64,000 nucleotides of DNA from Psychrobacillus psychrodurans (lineage in GTDB: Bacteria > Bacillota > Bacilli > Bacillales_A > Planococcaceae): the NCBI GenBank assembly GCA_900114885.1, contig FOUN01000014.1:1-64000 (forward strand). The letters are read 5' to 3'. This document shows, piece after piece, positions 4,633 through 63,681 of this stretch (within the stretch, counting starts at the first letter, position 1; each line of letters starts with the position of its first letter). A program made the position numbers and the translations under genes. Under the pieces are notes generated by a model. The model was not told the DNA's origin and did no database searches. It saw only the letters and a program-made list of their open reading frames with translations.

Positions 4633-6099
4633 TCAAGATAAATTATTGACTTCGAAAGCTACACGTATCCCAGATTCAATTGCACCCTGTATCCAACCGT
4701 GTGGGAGTGTAGTGTGTGCACCTGCAAAGTGAACACGACCCTCTGGTGTGGAAAGGTATGGAAAAAGTTCTGTTTCCTGTTCTGGCTTGAACATAGTGAA
4801 TGCTCCACCTGAAAATGGATTTTGCCCCCAACTATAGGATGCTCCCGTAATAAATTCATCATAAACTTGTCGACCATGGATGGTAGCCAAGTTCTGTAAG
4901 GCCTGCTGAATTCGTTTCTCTTCACTCAAACTTTCCCATGGGAGTGAATCATCTTCCCAAGTATAGCTAGCTAAAATTACTCCAGTCTCGTTTTTATCGA
5001 TATCATGGCTAGGATAATAACTAAATCGAATGGGCAAATCAGTTGCGGTTTGCCCACCTTGGATTCCTTGTTTCTCCCAAAATTTACTTTTAAACTGAAG
5101 ACCTATTTTTGTGGAAGTGGAATAATGGAGTTCACGAATAGCTTTCCACTTATTATGCGAGAATGAATTATGGGGGATAACTTCAACAAATTGCAGAATC
5201 GAGAATGGAATGGTCAATATGGCTATATCGCACGTTGTTTCGAATGATTGTTTCGATTCTGTATGCTCCGAATATATAGTGACTTGGTTTTGGTGCTGAA
5301 TAATTTTGGTCATCTGTTGATTAAAAATGATATTTCCCTCTAATTGTGGCAGAAATGAATTTGGGAGTTGATCGTTGCCTCCGGTAATTTCATAATACCG
5401 AGTAATTGGGTTTAAAAGAATTATAAACTCACGTAATATATCTAGAAATGCGAGCTCTGCTAAGCCCTCAATAGAAAGAAGTACCTTAATCATTTCGATG
5501 GCACCAGGCGATAAAGTCACGCCATTAGGGTTATATCTTAGAAATGCATCCATTGAATATTTATCATATTCCTTTATGACCCATTTCCAATTTTCCGTTG
5601 GATCTATATTGATAAAATCAATCACTGGTTGAATGACTGATTGTATCAACTCCAAAGCTGTTTTGCCTTTTTCATTAGGTGCGACAGGGTAGTCTAGTAT
5701 ATCTGGGTTTTGTTCATACAAGTATTGGCGTGTTATAATTCCGTTCACGTAAATCAAGTCGTTAGGTGTACTGTTTATAAATGGATTTATTGGTAAATTG
5801 AATTTTTTTATGTACGCTAACGTTAAATTGTGAGTCGATGGAATGCGCATCGCCCCAGCTTCCATATATTGATCGTTAATAAAAGGGAAGCGTTTCGTGT
5901 ATATTCGTCCCCCCACTCTTTCAGAAGCTTCAATTATGGTGACACTATGTCCGGCTTCCTCTAATAGCGAGGCAGCAACTAACCCTGACATACCTGCGCC
6001 GATAATAAGTATTCTCTTTGAGTTTTGTTTTTTACTTAATCCGTGGTGAATCATTGAAACCATTTGGTCGGGGGTTACATGAGAAAACATGGGTGTCAT
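4633..6099 (-). CDS. Flavin monoamine oxidase / L-amino-acid oxidase-like protein
   Basis: A 488-aa FAD-dependent amine oxidase. The N-terminal dinucleotide-binding fold is clear: [22 protein letters not shown] (GxGxxG near residue 34), then [14 protein letters not shown], the FAD-contact motif of the monoamine oxidase/LAAO family. The C-terminus has [11 protein letters not shown] and [14 protein letters not shown], the second flavin-binding segment. No signal peptide is seen, so it is probably cytosolic. It would oxidatively deaminate an amine or L-amino acid, giving an imine, then ammonia and hydrogen peroxide; the substrate cannot be read from sequence. ATG at 6099 lies behind AAAGGTGAAAG. 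It is a monocistronic unit, divergent from the zinc-efflux operon. Confidence 0.9.
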
Positions 6100-57032: not shown

Positions 57033-57461
57033 ATGAAAAAAGTTATAGGAACTATCTTGATATTTCTTGTTCTACTAGGATCCAGCACCATTTATGCCAG
57101 TGGTTTGCCACAAATTTCCCTTTCCAAATGGTATGGTCAATCATTTCAAGAGGAGAGTGAGGCATTTGAAGTTGTAACATCAAAAAGTATTAAAGAGATT
57201 CTAATGGAAATGAAATTATTTCTAACGACAACAAATGAAAAACTTGATGTTGATGTTTCAACTTTTTTAGACACTCAGGTAGAGGCAACAAACTCCAATT
57301 TGGAGGGATTTTCAAATGAAACTAAAAGAAGTCTTGCTGAATCAATAAAAGATTTGGAAAAGGTTAGCTTTGATGAGTATATGGACGAAGACGAAGAACT
57401 CATAAAAGAAGAGCTCGAACAAGAGGTTGAAGGACTATTAGCAGATGTGTTAAGTAAATAA
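57033..57461 (+). CDS. Exported coiled-coil protein 1 of the cluster, 142 aa
   Basis: A signal peptide (MKKVIGTILIFLVLLGSSTIYA) is followed at once by LSKWYGQSF, the segment shared by the cluster's proteins, and then a single charged helical region (SIKEILMEMKLFLTTTNEKL..., ending in acidic DEDEELIKEELEQEVEG). No enzymatic motif. ATG at 57033 follows AAAGGGGTG. It opens a run of four same-strand exported proteins with gaps of only 40-72 bp. No named family recognised; function unknown. Confidence 0.8.
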   Translation: MKKVIGTILIFLVLLGSSTIYASGLPQISLSKWYGQSFQEESEAFEVVTSKSIKEILMEMKLFLTTTNEKLDVDVSTFLDTQVEATNSNLEGFSNETKRSLAESIKDLEKVSFDEYMDEDEELIKEELEQEVEGLLADVLSK

Positions 57462-57501
57462 ACACTAATCTAAAAACTACAGTGCCAAGGGAGATTTTTC
57501 A

Positions 57502-58281
57502 TTGAAAAAAACAGTTAAACGTAAACTAATCGCAGGAGCAGTGGTAGTAGGCCTAATATCGACTACAGGAGTTGCATTTGGAGCAACGGATGCTGGCGCA
57601 GGTTTAAAAGGTTGGTATGACTCACAATTTAAAAAGGCGAATACTGAGGTAGCTATTGAATCGGCAAAACATACTACCCAAAAATTGCTCGAATTTAATA
57701 ATGAAGCAAAAGAATTAAAAACAGGTGCTACTGAAAGTATTAATGGGACAAGGGATACTGAAACAGAAGCTGCAAAAAGTTCCATTCATCAAGAAAGTAG
57801 AGATTATATAAATTCAGTTAATAATAAAAAAGCTGAAATTCAAAATAACATCGACAATCAATTTAAGAAAATTGAGGATGATGCGAATAAGGCAATATTA
57901 GCAGCTAGCAAATTAACTTATAGTTTAGCTGAATTGGATTTAAAAACACAAACAAGTAAGGAAGGCAAAGCTGCTCTTGCGTTTTTAAATACAGAAATTG
58001 AAAAAGAAACCAACAAAGCACTTAGTGACTTGGAGTGGGAGATTCGTACAACAAAGGGTTTCTTACAGGATTTGCTAAATAAAAAGAGTAGTGCCTCAAT
58101 CGAATCCATCAATAAAACAGTGGACAATGAGATTGCTAGACTACTCGACTTAATTGCGAAGAAAACTGGAGAATTAGTAACTGCTCAACAGACTGCAATT
58201 TCGTCAAAAGCTGCAGAATTAGAAGCAGCTGCTAAATTAAAGTTAGAAGAACGAGTAAATGCATTAATTAATGAAAAATAA
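57502..58281 (+). CDS. Exported coiled-coil protein 2 of the cluster, 259 aa
   Basis: The TTG start at 57502 lies eight bases after AAGGGAG. After the signal peptide (cleavage near VAFGA) comes DAGAGLKGWYDSQF, then about 220 residues of almost pure amphipathic helix rich in Lys, Glu, Ala and Asn with heptad spacing (KKAEIQNNIDNQFKKIEDDANKA, AKKTGELVTAQQTAISSKAAELEAAAKLKLEERV). The protein is a clear paralog of the next one, sharing the first 40 residues and the C-terminal KKTxxLV segment. It resembles stalk-like coiled coils but no family is recognised. Confidence 0.85.
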   Translation: MKKTVKRKLIAGAVVVGLISTTGVAFGATDAGAGLKGWYDSQFKKANTEVAIESAKHTTQKLLEFNNEAKELKTGATESINGTRDTETEAAKSSIHQESRDYINSVNNKKAEIQNNIDNQFKKIEDDANKAILAASKLTYSLAELDLKTQTSKEGKAALAFLNTEIEKETNKALSDLEWEIRTTKGFLQDLLNKKSSASIESINKTVDNEIARLLDLIAKKTGELVTAQQTAISSKAAELEAAAKLKLEERVNALINEK

Positions 58282-58353
58282 AATAAACATATTTGATAAT
58301 TGTAAGATGGACTAATTCATACAAAATTATAAAATCAAAGGGAGATAGTTAAT

Positions 58354-59127
58354 ATGATGAAAACAGTTAAAGGGAAAGTAATCGCAGGAACAGTAGCAGT
58401 AACACTTTTTGCAGGGGCGGGGGCAGCATTTGGAGCATCTGATGCTGGCTTAAACTTAAAAAATTGGTATAAAGCTCAATTTACTAGTTCTTCGAATGAA
58501 GTAAATAAACAAGTAGCGGAATATGCGGGAAGTAAAGTAGAAGAAATTACAACAGAATATAACACTATTAAATCAGATGCTGGAGATAGTATTAATGAAA
58601 AAGGAGAATTTGTCGCAGGCGTAGCAAGTGATATTATCGATGAACGTAGTCGTGAGCATATCGATTCTATTAAAGATGAAAAAGCTCATATTGAAACCTA
58701 CCTAGCAGGTCAATTTGATTCGCTTTCAACTTTTACACAAGGTTTAATAAATGAGGCAGGCAAAGAGGCATTAAAGTATGCAGACAAAGATTTAACTAAA
58801 TATACTGGAGATACTGGAAAAGCGGCTGTTGAAAAAGTAAATACAGACGTTAAAGCAGCGACTGCAGTGGCGGTGAAAGATTTAAAGGATACAATCGATT
58901 GGGCAAAATCCGATCTTCAAGCGAAACTTGATAAAGAAACAGATTTAACAGTAGTAGAAATCAAAGCCATGATTGATGCAAAAATTGTTGAACTACGTGG
59001 GGAAATTACGAAGAAAACAAATGCATTAGTTAAAGAGCAAGAAAGAATTATCACATTGGCAGCTAAAGGTTTACAAATAGCTGGATTAAAAGAACTTGAT
59101 GATTTAGTAAGTGGCATGAACAATTAA
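58354..59127 (+). CDS. Exported coiled-coil protein 3 of the cluster, 257 aa
   Basis: ATG at 58354 (or 58357) follows AAAGGGAGATAG. Signal peptide ending GAAFGA, then DAGLNLKNWYKAQF, matching protein 2 (DAGAGLKGWYDSQF). A helical body follows (VNTDVKAATAVAVKDLKDTIDWAKSDLQAKLDK) and a C-terminal KKTNALVKEQERI that matches KKTGELVTAQQTA in protein 2. Tandem duplication is evident. No cysteine, no catalytic motif, no wall-sorting signal, so it is presumably released or held by partners. Confidence 0.85.
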   Translation: MMKTVKGKVIAGTVAVTLFAGAGAAFGASDAGLNLKNWYKAQFTSSSNEVNKQVAEYAGSKVEEITTEYNTIKSDAGDSINEKGEFVAGVASDIIDERSREHIDSIKDEKAHIETYLAGQFDSLSTFTQGLINEAGKEALKYADKDLTKYTGDTGKAAVEKVNTDVKAATAVAVKDLKDTIDWAKSDLQAKLDKETDLTVVEIKAMIDAKIVELRGEITKKTNALVKEQERIITLAAKGLQIAGLKELDDLVSGMNN

Positions 59128-59137
59128 TTAAAATTAA

Positions 59138-59167
59138 TAAGGACCTCTTACTTTAGAGGTTCTTATT
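59138..59167 (+). terminator. Hairpin between proteins 3 and 4
   Basis: AATAAGGACCTCT and AGAGGTTCTTATT stem; the T run is short, so it may only attenuate. Confidence 0.6.
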
Positions 59168-59188
59168 CTTCTAATTGGAGGAATATAA

Positions 59189-60142
59189 ATGCTAAGTAGA
59201 ATTGAGAAATACAAAAAGAAAAGACAAATTAAAAAAGCGACAATAATTATTGCTTTACTAATTATACTTTTGGGACTCTCAGGTGGTGTAAAAACTGCTT
59301 TAGCAGATCAAGATATTCAAAGTTTACTGAACAATTGGTTTAACAACAAGAAGGTGGAATCCGTTCAGGAAATTGAAGGGGCGGTCTCATCAGAAAGAGA
59401 TCGTTTAATGCAGGATCTTGAGGTGGAACTACAAAGAGAAATGCAAGCTGCTGAAAATCAGCTGAATAGCTTTACAGCAACTCAAAAACAAACTCGTATT
59501 GCGGCGTTACAAGAATATGCTAACAACATAAAAGCAGGAATGACCATTGATAATAGTGAACAACAAGCTGCAATTATGAAAAACATAGATATTATTTTAG
59601 AGAATGCAAAAGCACAGCTGGATGGTCAACAAGCTAAGTTGAATTTAGTGGCAATTCCAAATCCTGAGGCAAATCCTATACCTAATCCAGTAGTGGTTCC
59701 AGAAACAAGCCCTGCCCCTGCATTAGAAACATCACCAACACCTGATACAGAAGTGATTTCCGAAATAGAAAAAGCTCCTGAAAAGGAAGTTAAGGCCTCA
59801 TCCCCATCAGTAAAAGAAGAACCTGTTGGGATTCCTCCTGTCGAGGTAGATATTTACTCGGTTACAGATTGGTTTGTTCTGCCGAATACTTCGAATGTAC
59901 AGATAGAAGAACTGACAATCACAGATGACGTATTTTCTATTAATTCCTCTTTTTCGGATATTTTGATGAACTCCCAGTCTCGAGGAATCTTGAATAGTAT
60001 TTTACCAGGTTTAGAAAAACACCCGCAGTTTAAACTAATTCAATATAAAACAATTGAAGAAATGTCGCGTGTTGCACCAGGGCATTTTACAGAATCAATT
60101 TTATATCTATTAAATAAATCATTAAGCACAGTAAAAAAATAA
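59189..60142 (+). CDS. Exported or membrane-anchored coiled-coil protein 4 of the cluster, 317 aa
   Basis: ATG at 59189 follows GGAGG. A basic start (YKKKRQIKKA) and hydrophobic segment precede ADQDIQSLLNNWFNNKK, the same place and shape as the LxxWY segment of its neighbours. A coiled coil (SSERDRLMQDLEVELQREMQ) follows, then a Pro-rich linker (about 150-215, PNPEANPIPNPVVVPETSP), and a distinct globular C-terminal domain of about 95 residues (VDIYSVTDWFVLPNT... to SLSTVKK). The longest and only multi-domain member. Family unknown. Confidence 0.82.
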   Translation: MLSRIEKYKKKRQIKKATIIIALLIILLGLSGGVKTALADQDIQSLLNNWFNNKKVESVQEIEGAVSSERDRLMQDLEVELQREMQAAENQLNSFTATQKQTRIAALQEYANNIKAGMTIDNSEQQAAIMKNIDIILENAKAQLDGQQAKLNLVAIPNPEANPIPNPVVVPETSPAPALETSPTPDTEVISEIEKAPEKEVKASSPSVKEEPVGIPPVEVDIYSVTDWFVLPNTSNVQIEELTITDDVFSINSSFSDILMNSQSRGILNSILPGLEKHPQFKLIQYKTIEEMSRVAPGHFTESILYLLNKSLSTVKK

Positions 60143-60144
60143 AA

Positions 60145-60191
60145 AATACCAGGTAATTCAACAACTAACATTGTTGAATTATCTGGTATTT
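60145..60191 (+). terminator. Terminator after the secreted-protein cluster
   Basis: AAATACCAGGTAATTCAACA pairs with TGTTGAATTATCTGGTATTT (one mismatch), followed by T-rich sequence. Confidence 0.85.
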
Positions 60192-60211
60192 ACTTTTTTG
60201 GGGTAAAAATA

Positions 60212-60260
60212 TTTACTTTATGGAGTAAATAAATTGATTTTTAGAGTAATTTAAATTACT
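60212..60260 (+). promoter_or_regulatory. Palindromic operator-like sites ahead of the HTH-F1beta gene
   Basis: TTTACT-N6-AGTAAA (60212-60229) and the perfect 16-bp palindrome AGTAATTTAAATTACT (60245-60260) share the half-site AGTAA. A third AGTAA lies at 60267-60271, next to the AAGGAGGGG ribosome site. This suggests autoregulation by the HTH protein encoded immediately downstream. Confidence 0.55.
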
Positions 60261-60285
60261 ATTAAAAGTAATAAGGAGGGGTGTT

Positions 60286-61332
60286 ATGGAAGATATAAGA
60301 TTGAATGTTGCTTTACTAAGAAGAAAGGTTCCCAATTTGACGACCGCGGCGAAATCAATAGGGATTAGACCTGCGACCGTTTCGAATTTATGTACTGGGA
60401 AGATTGATTTGGGAAAGGCGGAGATAAGGACCCTTGTAGGTCTAGCGTCTTTGGCAAATTGTAAGGTAGATGATCTAATCATACGGGGGGAGAAGTTGGA
60501 TATGATTGAAACAAAAATCAAAGCACTCGATTTTTTTGCTCCATTAGTAAAAGAGGGAACAACTGGTTTAGTTGCAAGACCTGGAATGGGGCAGTTAGTT
60601 ATTCTTGCAGAACTTTTGCACAGATTTAAAGACGGTGATTATACGACGGTATTTTTATTGCCCAAAACACGACAAGAAGAACTTGAAACAGAGGGTATTA
60701 CTGAGTTAGCAAATTATTTAACTGAATCCACAGAAGAGACATTTTTGAAGTTATCCGAAATTTCTGGGGATATCCTGTTAATAACAGATAATAGTTATGT
60801 GGTGTCGGGACAGTTATTAGATCTGCAAGAAAAAATGATCAAAGAAGGAATTAAAAATGTCACCACAATACTATTAGACCTTTCTGGGGAAGTGGTCGAT
60901 GAGGATATTCCTTTTGGACCTTTAGAAACAGTGTGGCAATTGGATGCTGACCTTGCAGCACGTCACCTTTATCCTGCAGTTCAACCAATTATTTCTACTT
61001 CTTCACTTGTGGAAGGAGTGGACGTAGATCAACGTCACTTTAATTTAAGACAAAGAGCACAGAAATTACTTAGACGTTATAAAGAGCTGCGTTCGTTAGT
61101 TGTTGTGCATGGTTTAGATAAAATTAGAAGTAATGAATTAGAAACTTACGAACGTGGAGAACGACTAGAAGCGTATTTTACACAACCCTTTTATGTTGCA
61201 GAGTCCTTTACAGGTCAAGTTGGGCAAGAAGTTTCCCTGTCTCAAACATTGCAAGATGTCGAATATATTCTAGATGGTAAGGCTGATGAACAATCAGTAG
61301 ATAACCTGAAATATATTGGAAGTCTAGTATAA
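60286..61332 (+). CDS. Fusion of XRE-type HTH with a degenerate F1-ATPase beta-subunit domain
   Basis: A 348-aa protein. Residues about 1-68 are an XRE-like helix-turn-helix (LTTAAKSIGIRPATVSNLCTGK). From about 72 on it follows AtpD: ETKIKALDFFAPLVKEGTTGLVARPGMGQLVILAEL matches the region around the beta P-loop (ETGIKVIDLLAPYxKGGKxGLFGGAGVGKT). Later LYPAVQPIISTSSLVEG, RAQKLLRRYKELRSLVVVHGLD, YFTQPFYVAESFTGQVG and EVSLSQTLQDVEYILDG follow the AtpD C-terminal domain in order. The P-loop is GMGQL instead of GVGKT and the catalytic Glu region GERTREG reads LPKTRQEE, so ATP hydrolysis is improbable. The beta-barrel of AtpD is replaced by the HTH. ATG at 60286 follows AAGGAGGGG. Confidence 0.85.
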   Translation: MEDIRLNVALLRRKVPNLTTAAKSIGIRPATVSNLCTGKIDLGKAEIRTLVGLASLANCKVDDLIIRGEKLDMIETKIKALDFFAPLVKEGTTGLVARPGMGQLVILAELLHRFKDGDYTTVFLLPKTRQEELETEGITELANYLTESTEETFLKLSEISGDILLITDNSYVVSGQLLDLQEKMIKEGIKNVTTILLDLSGEVVDEDIPFGPLETVWQLDADLAARHLYPAVQPIISTSSLVEGVDVDQRHFNLRQRAQKLLRRYKELRSLVVVHGLDKIRSNELETYERGERLEAYFTQPFYVAESFTGQVGQEVSLSQTLQDVEYILDGKADEQSVDNLKYIGSLV

Positions 61333-61344
61333 GCTATATCGAAG

Positions 61345-61377
61345 AAAAGCAACTGAAGTTATTTCGGTTGCTTTTTT
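61345..61377 (+). terminator. Terminator after the HTH-F1beta gene
   Basis: AAAGCAACTGAA and TTTCGGTTGCTTT stem with loop GTTA, then T6. Confidence 0.85.
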
Positions 61378-61476
61378 ACTTAGTATTTTTGTTGACTATT
61401 ATTATTTCTATATCCATACCCTTCTGTTTAAATCCTTTCTGAAAAGGAGAAACTTAGTTAAAAAAGGGTGTTAAAC

Positions 61477-61968
61477 ATGACAACTTCTGTAAAAACCTCT
61501 TCCATTCATAAAAAAAATCCAAATAAAAGAGTATATGCCAAACAGAATATGTGGACAGGTATTTTGTTTGGACTGGGAATTGTAGCTTTTATAGATGAAG
61601 TAGTTTTTCATCAGCTTCTTCATTGGCACCATTTTTACGATAAATCTACTACGGATATTGGACTAGTGTCTGATGGGCTTTTTCATGCATTTAGCTTCAT
61701 AGCTACGATAGGAGCATCCTTTTTACTTGCAGATCTTCATAGGCGGCATGCTTTTTGGTTAAAGAGATGGGTAGGGGGAATCCTTCTAGGTGCAGGTGTT
61801 TTTCAACTGTACGATGGAATTATTCAACATAAGTGGATGGGTTTACATCAGATTCGTTATGGGGTAGATATCCTACCTTATGATTTAGTATGGAATATTT
61901 TAGCTGCTTTAATGATTATTTTAGGGTTTATTTTAATATATCAGACAAGCCATGAAAGGAAGGTCTGA
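61477..61968 (+). CDS. DUF2243 membrane protein
   Basis: A 163-aa four-helix protein with conserved His in GIVAFIDEVVFHQLLHWHHFYD and DGLFHAFSF, the DUF2243 signature. Such genes often lie beside ctaG-like genes, as here, where the next gene starts 6 bp after the stop. ATG at 61477 follows AAAAAAGGGTG. A role in heme/copper oxidase assembly is suggested only by context. Confidence 0.88.
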   Translation: MTTSVKTSSIHKKNPNKRVYAKQNMWTGILFGLGIVAFIDEVVFHQLLHWHHFYDKSTTDIGLVSDGLFHAFSFIATIGASFLLADLHRRHAFWLKRWVGGILLGAGVFQLYDGIIQHKWMGLHQIRYGVDILPYDLVWNILAALMIILGFILIYQTSHERKV

Positions 61969-61974
61969 GTATAA

Positions 61975-62910
61975 GTGCATACTCACGAACAGTATTCAGC
62001 GACTAGTCTCCAGTTTTTTTTAGCAATTCCTTTTATACTGTTATTTGTTTTTTATATTGTGGCGGTAGGTCTATCCAATCGAAAGAAAAAACCATGGTCA
62101 GTGTTCCGGTTAGTAGCATGGAGCTTTGGAGTACTGTGTGCATTGCTCGCAACAATTGGTCCAATTGCAGATTTAGGACACATGAATTTTTCTGTTCATA
62201 TGATTGGTCATGTATTACTGGGCATGTTGGCGCCGCTTTTAATGGCGTTAGGTGCTCCGATAAAGCTCCTGCTGCGAACGATTAGTGTATATACAGCACG
62301 AAAACTAACTACAATCTTACGACGCAATATTTTTCTTCATTTCGTTCAACATCCTATTATTGCTTCTTTACTAAATATTGGTGGCTTATGGGTTCTTTAC
62401 ACAACTGACTTGTTTCTAATGATGCACGAAAATATGCTTCTTTATGTAATTATTCATGTACATATTTTTCTAGCTGGATATGTATTTGCAGTTTCAATTA
62501 TTTACGTTGATCTGGTGATTATAAGAAAAAGTTATTTATATCGTACGGTCGTCTTTCTTTTTGCATTAGCGGGTCATTCCGTCTTAGCTAAATATATTTA
62601 TGCGAATCCGCCAAGTGGAGTTCCAATAGATCAAGCGGAATTCGGTAGCATGATTATGTACTACGGTGGGGATACTGTGGAGATAGGGCTAATTTCAATA
62701 CTGTTTTATCAGTGGTACAAAAAAAGTCGCCCTATACTCAATAATGGAAAGGATGGGTTTGCTATAAGTACTAAAAAATTTACAGTTGCAGGAACAGATA
62801 TTGAGGAAGTTAAAAGATTAAATGCAAATGCAGGCATGAGTTATCGTGAAATAAATGAGTGGTTTGCAAAAAAACAATCTAAGGCTGGCACAGTAACTAA
62901 AAAAAGATAA
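61975..62910 (+). CDS. CtaG-like cytochrome c oxidase assembly protein (caa3_CtaG)
   Basis: A 311-aa multi-pass protein: GPIADLGHMNFSVHMIGHVLLGMLAPLLMALGAP is the caa3_CtaG hallmark with conserved histidines, then LLYVIIHVHIFLAGYVFAVSI and AGHSVLAKYIYA. The C-terminal 60 residues are a soluble extension (VKRLNANAGMSYREINEWFAKK). The GTG start at 61975 follows AAGGAAGGTCTGAG. Expected to help deliver copper to the oxidase in the membrane. Part of a three-gene run with DUF2243 and DUF2512 genes. Confidence 0.9.
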   Translation: MHTHEQYSATSLQFFLAIPFILLFVFYIVAVGLSNRKKKPWSVFRLVAWSFGVLCALLATIGPIADLGHMNFSVHMIGHVLLGMLAPLLMALGAPIKLLLRTISVYTARKLTTILRRNIFLHFVQHPIIASLLNIGGLWVLYTTDLFLMMHENMLLYVIIHVHIFLAGYVFAVSIIYVDLVIIRKSYLYRTVVFLFALAGHSVLAKYIYANPPSGVPIDQAEFGSMIMYYGGDTVEIGLISILFYQWYKKSRPILNNGKDGFAISTKKFTVAGTDIEEVKRLNANAGMSYREINEWFAKKQSKAGTVTKKR

Positions 62911-62929
62911 ATCGAGAGGGGTCAAAATA

Positions 62930-63397
62930 ATGTATATGAAAGCTTTATTTATGAAATTTCTCATGATAACTGCGGTGCTATGGGTTGTTTTAAGCCTTAT
63001 TTATGAAGTGTCTTTTACTGACGTAGTTATTACTAGTGTGGTTCTTACAGCAGTAGGGTATGTAGGAGATGTCTTTATATTACCTAAAATAGGAAATGTA
63101 TGGGCAGCTATAAGTGACTTTGTTATTGCTTATGCAATTATTTACTTCCTTGGTTCCTATATTTATGAGCAACCACTAGCCTTAGGGACAGCGGCTTTTA
63201 TATCTGCGCTGATATTAATGGTAGGAGAACTCTTGTTACATCGATATATGCATACAAATATCTTCGAACCGAGGAAATCGAATCCCAATGAGAAAGTGGG
63301 ATATTACAACCGAACGAATTTACAGACTGAATTTGCAGAAGAAGTGGAGATTGAATCTTTGTCCAAAGAATTAAAAGGAAAAAATTCAAAGAAGTAA
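62930..63397 (+). CDS. yndM: YndM-like DUF2512 membrane protein
   Basis: A 155-aa four-helix protein (MKFLMITAVLWVVLSLIYEVSFTDVVITSVVLTAVGYVGDVFILPKIGN, shown in parts by its conserved core SFTDV and GDVFILPKIGN) with a charged C-terminal tail. It matches DUF2512, typified by YndM of Bacillus. ATG at 62930 follows GAGAGGGGT. Function unknown. Confidence 0.87.
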   Translation: MYMKALFMKFLMITAVLWVVLSLIYEVSFTDVVITSVVLTAVGYVGDVFILPKIGNVWAAISDFVIAYAIIYFLGSYIYEQPLALGTAAFISALILMVGELLLHRYMHTNIFEPRKSNPNEKVGYYNRTNLQTEFAEEVEIESLSKELKGKNSKK

Positions 63398-63468: not shown

Positions 63469-63681
63469 ATGGGAAACAATAATAATCGCAATAATAACAA
63501 CAACAATAACCGTAATAACAATAACCAAAATAATCCAGCTGAGTTCGGTGAGGATTTCAACTTTGACAATTTAAACGAGCAAAACCAAAACGAACAAAAC
63601 AGAAACAATAACAACCAAAACCAACGTAATAACAATCGCAACAACAATAACAACAATAACAACAATAACAACCTTAAGTAA
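63469..63681 (+). CDS. Asparagine-rich low-complexity protein, 70 aa
   Basis: ATG at 63469 stands behind the strong site AAGGAGGTGAG. More than half of the residues are Asn, with interspersed Arg and Gln, and a short acidic centre (PAEFGEDFNFDNLNEQ) separates two N-rich arms. The reverse strand has a Leu-rich open frame here that is only its shadow. Likely a disordered, possibly spore- or surface-associated protein. Terminator follows. Confidence 0.75.
   Translation: MGNNNNRNNNNNNNRNNNNQNNPAEFGEDFNFDNLNEQNQNEQNRNNNNQNQRNNNRNNNNNNNNNNNLK

Follow-up and report, generated by a model that had tools for sequence, protein, structure and literature searches.

A Cro/C1-type helix-turn-helix joined to a shortened F1-ATPase beta subunit: a putative self-repressing regulator of Bacillales

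A gene in the window (the whole stretch of 64,000 nucleotides of Psychrobacillus psychrodurans DNA analysed here) encodes a protein in which a Cro/C1-type helix-turn-helix (HTH) is joined to a shortened copy of the F1-ATPase beta subunit (AtpD). Judging from sequence comparisons, the protein is probably a one-component regulator that represses its own gene, carries a signal and assembly module derived from F1 beta and, in some relatives, also governs accessory hydrolase genes. The role of a DNA-binding regulator, presumed in a first-pass annotation of this DNA, is supported by a conserved operator array found at the gene's own promoter and at two other kinds of predicted target.

Results

The regulator gene and its surroundings

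The regulator ORF (Table 1) has a good ribosome-binding site at its 5' end and is flanked by two terminator-like hairpins; it therefore forms a single-gene unit. Full-length orthologues, with 51-93% identity, were found in Psychrobacillus, Paenisporosarcina, Planococcus, Sutcliffiella, Bacillus, Ureibacillus, Sediminibacillus and Paenibacillus. Since pairwise dN/dS values were 0.06-0.15 for the whole gene (0.02-0.04 for the HTH) and these orthologues are full-length, a decaying pseudogene is ruled out.

The upstream region of the window (57033-60142) contains tandem genes of secreted, coiled-coil-rich proteins (142, 259, 257 and 317 aa), which have a common W[YF] motif shortly downstream of the signal peptide, gave no Pfam match above the cut-off and are conserved in close relatives only. 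Downstream, genes of a DUF2243 protein, Caa3_CtaG (cytochrome oxidase assembly factor) and a DUF2512 membrane protein occupy positions 61468-63397, followed by an ORF of 70 aa (63469-63681), chiefly asparagine (poly-N), without Pfam match.

Table 1. Coordinates of the regulator gene, its domains and the associated signals in the window
Feature	Position	Strand	Basis
CDS, 348 aa, HTH - F1-beta-like regulator	60286..61332	+	open ORF, 30 aligned homologues, dN/dS 0.06-0.15
Cro/C1-type HTH (HTH_26), residues 5-66	60298..60483	+	Pfam and alignment; recognition region RPATVSNLCTGKI nearly invariant
F1-ATPase beta-like domain, residues 70-346	60493..61323	+	shortened nucleotide domain and C-terminal helical domain; NCBIfam, Foldseek, hhalign
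Former P-loop, A97-R-P-G-M-G-Q-L104 replacing AtpD GGAGVGKT	60574..60597	+	homologue and AtpD alignments
Operator array, 7 alternating half-sites (predicted)	60202..60271	+	pattern scans, array model, shuffles
Probable sigma-A promoter within array, TTGATT - 17 - TACTAT	60234..60262	+	sequence; family consensus TTGCTT - 17 - TACTAT
Ribosome-binding site AAGGAGGGG	60273..60281	+	sequence
Terminator-like hairpin closing upstream unit	60144..60191	+	hairpin scan
Terminator-like hairpin 3' of regulator gene	61343..61377	+	hairpin scan

An F1-beta copy with an HTH in place of the barrel

In Pfam searches, ATP-synt_ab and ATP-synt_VA_C both matched all 30 family members, HTH_26 matched 23 and HTH_31 six. 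When the window protein was searched singly, the two ATP-synthase alpha/beta domains scored just below the cut-off and HTH_26 (residues 5-66, 20.4 bits) slightly below it; the NCBIfam atpD model (TIGR01039) gave 115 bits (E 3.7e-33), against a family cut-off of 462.85. A profile-profile comparison (hhalign) of the family with 18 Bacillota AtpD sequences, assembled into a profile in the present analysis, placed residues 70-346 colinearly on AtpD 129-456 (E 4.4e-32, 31% identity), a similarity far above chance. The top Foldseek matches of an AlphaFold model of the regulator were F1 or F1-like beta chains; the confidence of this model is moderate overall (pLDDT 66, pTM 0.50), with weak stretches at residues 203-247 and 301-312. 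AtpD 1-128, the barrel, has no counterpart, and the HTH occupies its place. Thus, the first-pass proposal of an XRE-type HTH that substitutes for the beta-barrel and is fused to a domain following AtpD in order was borne out by profile, family and structure searches, the last of these covering the part after residue 70.

In a phylogenetic tree the family was monophyletic (support 1.0) and fell among Bacillota AtpD, adjoining the genome's own AtpD on a very long branch; because the stem is long, its exact origin within the tree is uncertain.

The catalytic residues were compared using the numbering of the genome's own AtpD (L207). The P-loop G156-GAGVGKT-163 has become A97-RPGMGQL-104, with Gln103/Leu104 instead of Lys162/Thr163, and the segment no longer fits the Walker A pattern GxxxxGKT. 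Nevertheless invariant across the 30 sequences are A97, R98, M101, G102 and Q103, and ARPGMGQ is present in all or nearly all of them. Catalytic Glu188 (GERTREG) aligns with a variable position, Thr128 in the window protein; the nucleotide domain is shorter by ~50 residues, a deletion that includes the Arg268 loop; Arg350 is replaced by Ser240, and the DELSEED stretch has also been replaced. The YPAV-P--STS, L-RY-EL and QPF-VAE-FTG stretches are retained, as is the Walker-B Asp250, which corresponds to Asp168 in ~90% of members. If the adenine pocket of bovine F1 is taken to be Tyr345, Phe418, Ala421 and Phe424, the equivalents Tyr/Phe229, Phe302 and Ala305 are kept, and residue 308 is variable (Phe308 in the window protein, not conserved). 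Among the 30 aligned members the HTH is nearly invariant and the middle segment 115-196 is variable.

The loss of these residues suggests that the regulator is catalytically disarmed. The first-pass annotation had recorded the missing P-loop Lys and catalytic Glu correctly; its description of the domain as dead applies to catalysis, but not to Asp168 or to most of the adenine pocket. This pattern bears on the reading of the protein as a repressor whose F1-beta-like part is a rigid, ligand-free oligomerisation scaffold, leaving pure negative autoregulation and dosage. Such a scaffold could dispense with the P-loop Lys/Thr, the catalytic Glu and the Arg region, would tolerate variation in segment 115-196, and would be compatible with an operator array (see below) that allows a co-operative chain along one DNA face. 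However, strong selection acts on the YPA / QPF-x-VAE pocket as well as on the former P-loop, beyond the apparent needs of a scaffold, and we regard this reading as unlikely.

A conserved predicted operator array covering the promoter

Upstream of almost every orthologue there is an array of up to seven half-sites, (A/C)GTAA and TTAC(T/G), which alternate in orientation at an 11-bp step. In the window these are GGTAA (60202), TTACT (60213), AGTAA (60224), TTGAT (60234), AGTAA (60245), TTACT (60256) and AGTAA (60267); the fourth of these is a degenerate copy, and all steps measure 11 bp except one of 10 bp. The L016 array comprises seven half-sites, with every step exactly 11 bp. A three-half-site pattern had two occurrences in the 64-kb window, each of them within the array, compared with 0.01 expected, and the longest chain averaged 4.0 over 29 upstream regions, compared with 0.93 in dinucleotide shuffles (maximum 1.10 in 300 shuffled sets). 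A looser array pattern scan gave fewer matches than its reversed control.

The array spans -35 and -10 elements with the family consensus TTGCTT-17-TACTAT, plausibly a sigma-A promoter; a simple promoter scan at 9/12 did not pick up the window's version. In about nine of ten sequences the half-site doubling as -35 reads TTGCT, not TTACT. This is expected if half-site 4, whose neighbours are TTACT, also serves as the -35 element. Since the half-sites alternate at 11 bp, all binding would take place on roughly one DNA face, with dyads between all neighbours, a layout that suits co-operative, chain-like loading.

As the array covers the gene's own promoter, we propose that the regulator limits its own synthesis. 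The imperfect -35 boxes (TTGCTT) would also be in keeping with an activator bound to the same array, but the array extends over the -35, the -10 and past them, so that a bound protein would obstruct the polymerase; activation is accordingly improbable on this layout.

A sequence-only model of the array was built from 33 sequences, with the M3 and L029/L174/L216 sites (described below) excluded. Applied to 43 further carriers from 12 genera, it detected sites in 42 of them, almost invariably at the regulator's own promoter, and further sampling located the array at a Paenibacillus megaplasmid copy and at a copy from another class. Among 19 congeneric genomes, the three lacking the gene also lacked a strong site (best E 0.027), compared with 1e-14 to 2e-5 in the carriers. 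The array logic by itself leaves the binder unnamed, and another regulator might own the array, the HTH-F1-beta protein being a mere target. However, the array tracks the gene and is absent from the three congeners without it, its self-placement is near universal, and operons of amidase and regulator genes lie under one common array; a separate binder is therefore most improbable, and the HTH itself presumably recognises the half-sites.

Distribution of the family

The gene is patchily distributed, being present in 56 of 261 genomes in a sample of the order, 12 of 301 in a sample of the class and 3 of 399 in a sample of the phylum, the last including one genome of another class. No neighbour genes common across genera were found in these varied neighbourhoods, where the gene stands alone, and conserved neighbours were dropped as a functional clue because the surroundings differ from genus to genus. 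Nor were adjoining genes of alpha-like or other F1 subunits found.

One regulator copy is carried by a plasmid, the Paenibacillus megaplasmid, and this only annotated record found is labelled hypothetical. It lies behind a same-strand ABC transporter and FAD-binding protein/ferredoxin cluster (L210, 1-7800), which may be functionally linked to it. A second, partial regulator copy (G517:C23; L055/L214) comprises residues 2-131 with one in-frame stop and has retained the array upstream. A phage or plasmid origin was rejected, as the phage matches listed begin at residue 70-72, lack the HTH and show 24-26% identity, as true AtpD would. PADLOC models of anti-phage defence gave no match to the regulator.

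Predicted targets

In the window's genome, the sole strong array identified with the model was that of the regulator's own promoter. The next match (C15, E 0.067) and the rest were at chance level, and a wider regulon in this genome was rejected. With only the self site strong, the regulator may control nothing else there, or just weaker sites.

Additional targets were found in relatives. In four carriers among the 19 congeneric genomes, a second strong array is located directly upstream of a gene for an accessory M3 oligopeptidase (82-100% identical), which is present in exactly those four; for the housekeeping M3 paralogue, a strong site was reported in none of the 19. The other kind of target is an acetamidase/formamidase gene, found (i) in L174, where the array precedes it and the regulator gene lies elsewhere, (ii) in Paenibacillus albiflavus (L029), where array, amidase, regulator and amidohydrolase form one operon, and (iii) in L216, where the array is followed by an operon of overlapping regulator and amidase genes. 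The amidases of L174 and L216 are 73% identical, and that of L029 shows 48% identity. The L029 acetamidase/formamidase gene under the array (about 5020-5960) has one in-frame stop (TAA), reflecting either a pseudogene or a sequencing error. Only these three acetamidase/formamidase genes have the array; such genes in general were rejected as targets, since 23 searched regions in carrier genomes lacked it. A Pfam tally of acetamidase/formamidase genes at 1e-20 misses the array-linked subtype, and presence/absence was left unused.

These targets also bear on the suggestion of the first-pass annotation that the protein senses the state of the ATP synthase, for instance with the domain docking on F1 alpha, gamma or free beta and signalling the state or assembly of the enzyme to DNA. 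The beta-derived domain and its tree position beside the genome's own AtpD, albeit on a very long branch, would fit such a sensor. In contrast, the regulator has lost the barrel along with part of the nucleotide domain and has another sequence in place of the DELSEED stretch; the window's genome has no strong array other than the self site, and the targets in relatives are hydrolase genes, with no atp gene among the array targets. The suggestion is thus unsupported, and we consider it very improbable indeed.

Proposed mechanism

According to the self-repression model that we prefer, the N-terminal HTH would bind (A/C)GTAA half-sites in the inverted-repeat array with its 11-bp step at the gene's own promoter, and in relatives the same array would bring M3 oligopeptidase or acetamidase/formamidase genes under repression. 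The C-terminal two thirds, a former F1 beta stripped of catalysis and of the ring-forming barrel, would act as the signal-receiving and assembly module. This module would bind, but not hydrolyse, a small ligand, adenine-containing or otherwise, and an open/closed movement inherited from F1 beta would alter the co-operative occupancy of the DNA.

Binding of such a ligand without hydrolysis seems to us the most likely mode, since most of the adenine pocket is kept and the phosphate-handling residues are lost, which favours an adenine ligand, or another ligand of the same cleft. With most of the adenine pocket in place, the nucleotide sensor suggested at first pass is a possibility, although the lack of Lys/Thr in the P-loop makes ordinary ATP-Mg binding less likely. 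A more specific version, with the inherited F1-beta switch sensing an adenylate or related ligand, driving co-operative loading of the array and controlling both peptidase and amidase genes, is put forward tentatively and is open to considerable doubt. As a predicted operator and predicted targets are in hand, ligand and mechanism are directly testable.

Comparison with known systems

The regulator shares with AtpD (TIGR01039) an ordered homology over residues 70-346, the Walker-B Asp and the adenine-pocket Tyr/Phe/Ala. It differs in having an HTH for the barrel, in the loss of the P-loop K/T and catalytic Glu, in the deletion of ~50 residues, in its location outside the atp operon and in its score (115 bits versus a cut-off of 463). 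F1-beta-derived proteins acting outside ATP synthase are known from mycoplasma F1-like ATPases (MSC_0618 type, the MMOB1670 gliding ATPase and the MIB-MIP-associated ATPase; PMC3369863, PMC11864180, PMC12994834); as described in the available parts of these papers, they are multi-subunit ATPase complexes, whereas the regulator is a single-gene, putative DNA-binding protein without catalytic residues.

Like other XRE / Cro-C1 one-component regulators, the protein has an N-terminal HTH, a C-terminal effector domain and putative autoregulation through a palindromic operator, which differs, however, in being a long alternating array with an 11-bp step. To our knowledge, no effector domain derived from a rotary ATPase is known in that group. 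Rho, the transcription termination factor, is a RecA-type hexamer related to F1 and an active RNA helicase; it is thus another F1-beta relative working in transcription, whereas the regulator carries an HTH and has no ATPase residues.

Effector domains derived from enzymes are already known among one-component regulators. Searches of the literature and databases revealed no characterised regulator with the HTH and F1-beta architecture, in agreement with the unfamiliarity of the fusion remarked on at first pass, and as far as these sources show, the F1-beta-derived effector is new. The protein is apparently the first regulator with an F1-ATPase beta subunit as its effector domain, and its family, which spans the Bacillales, would represent a rotary-motor subunit redeployed as a one-component switch. 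If this is true, there is a transcription factor family derived from a rotary-ATPase subunit.
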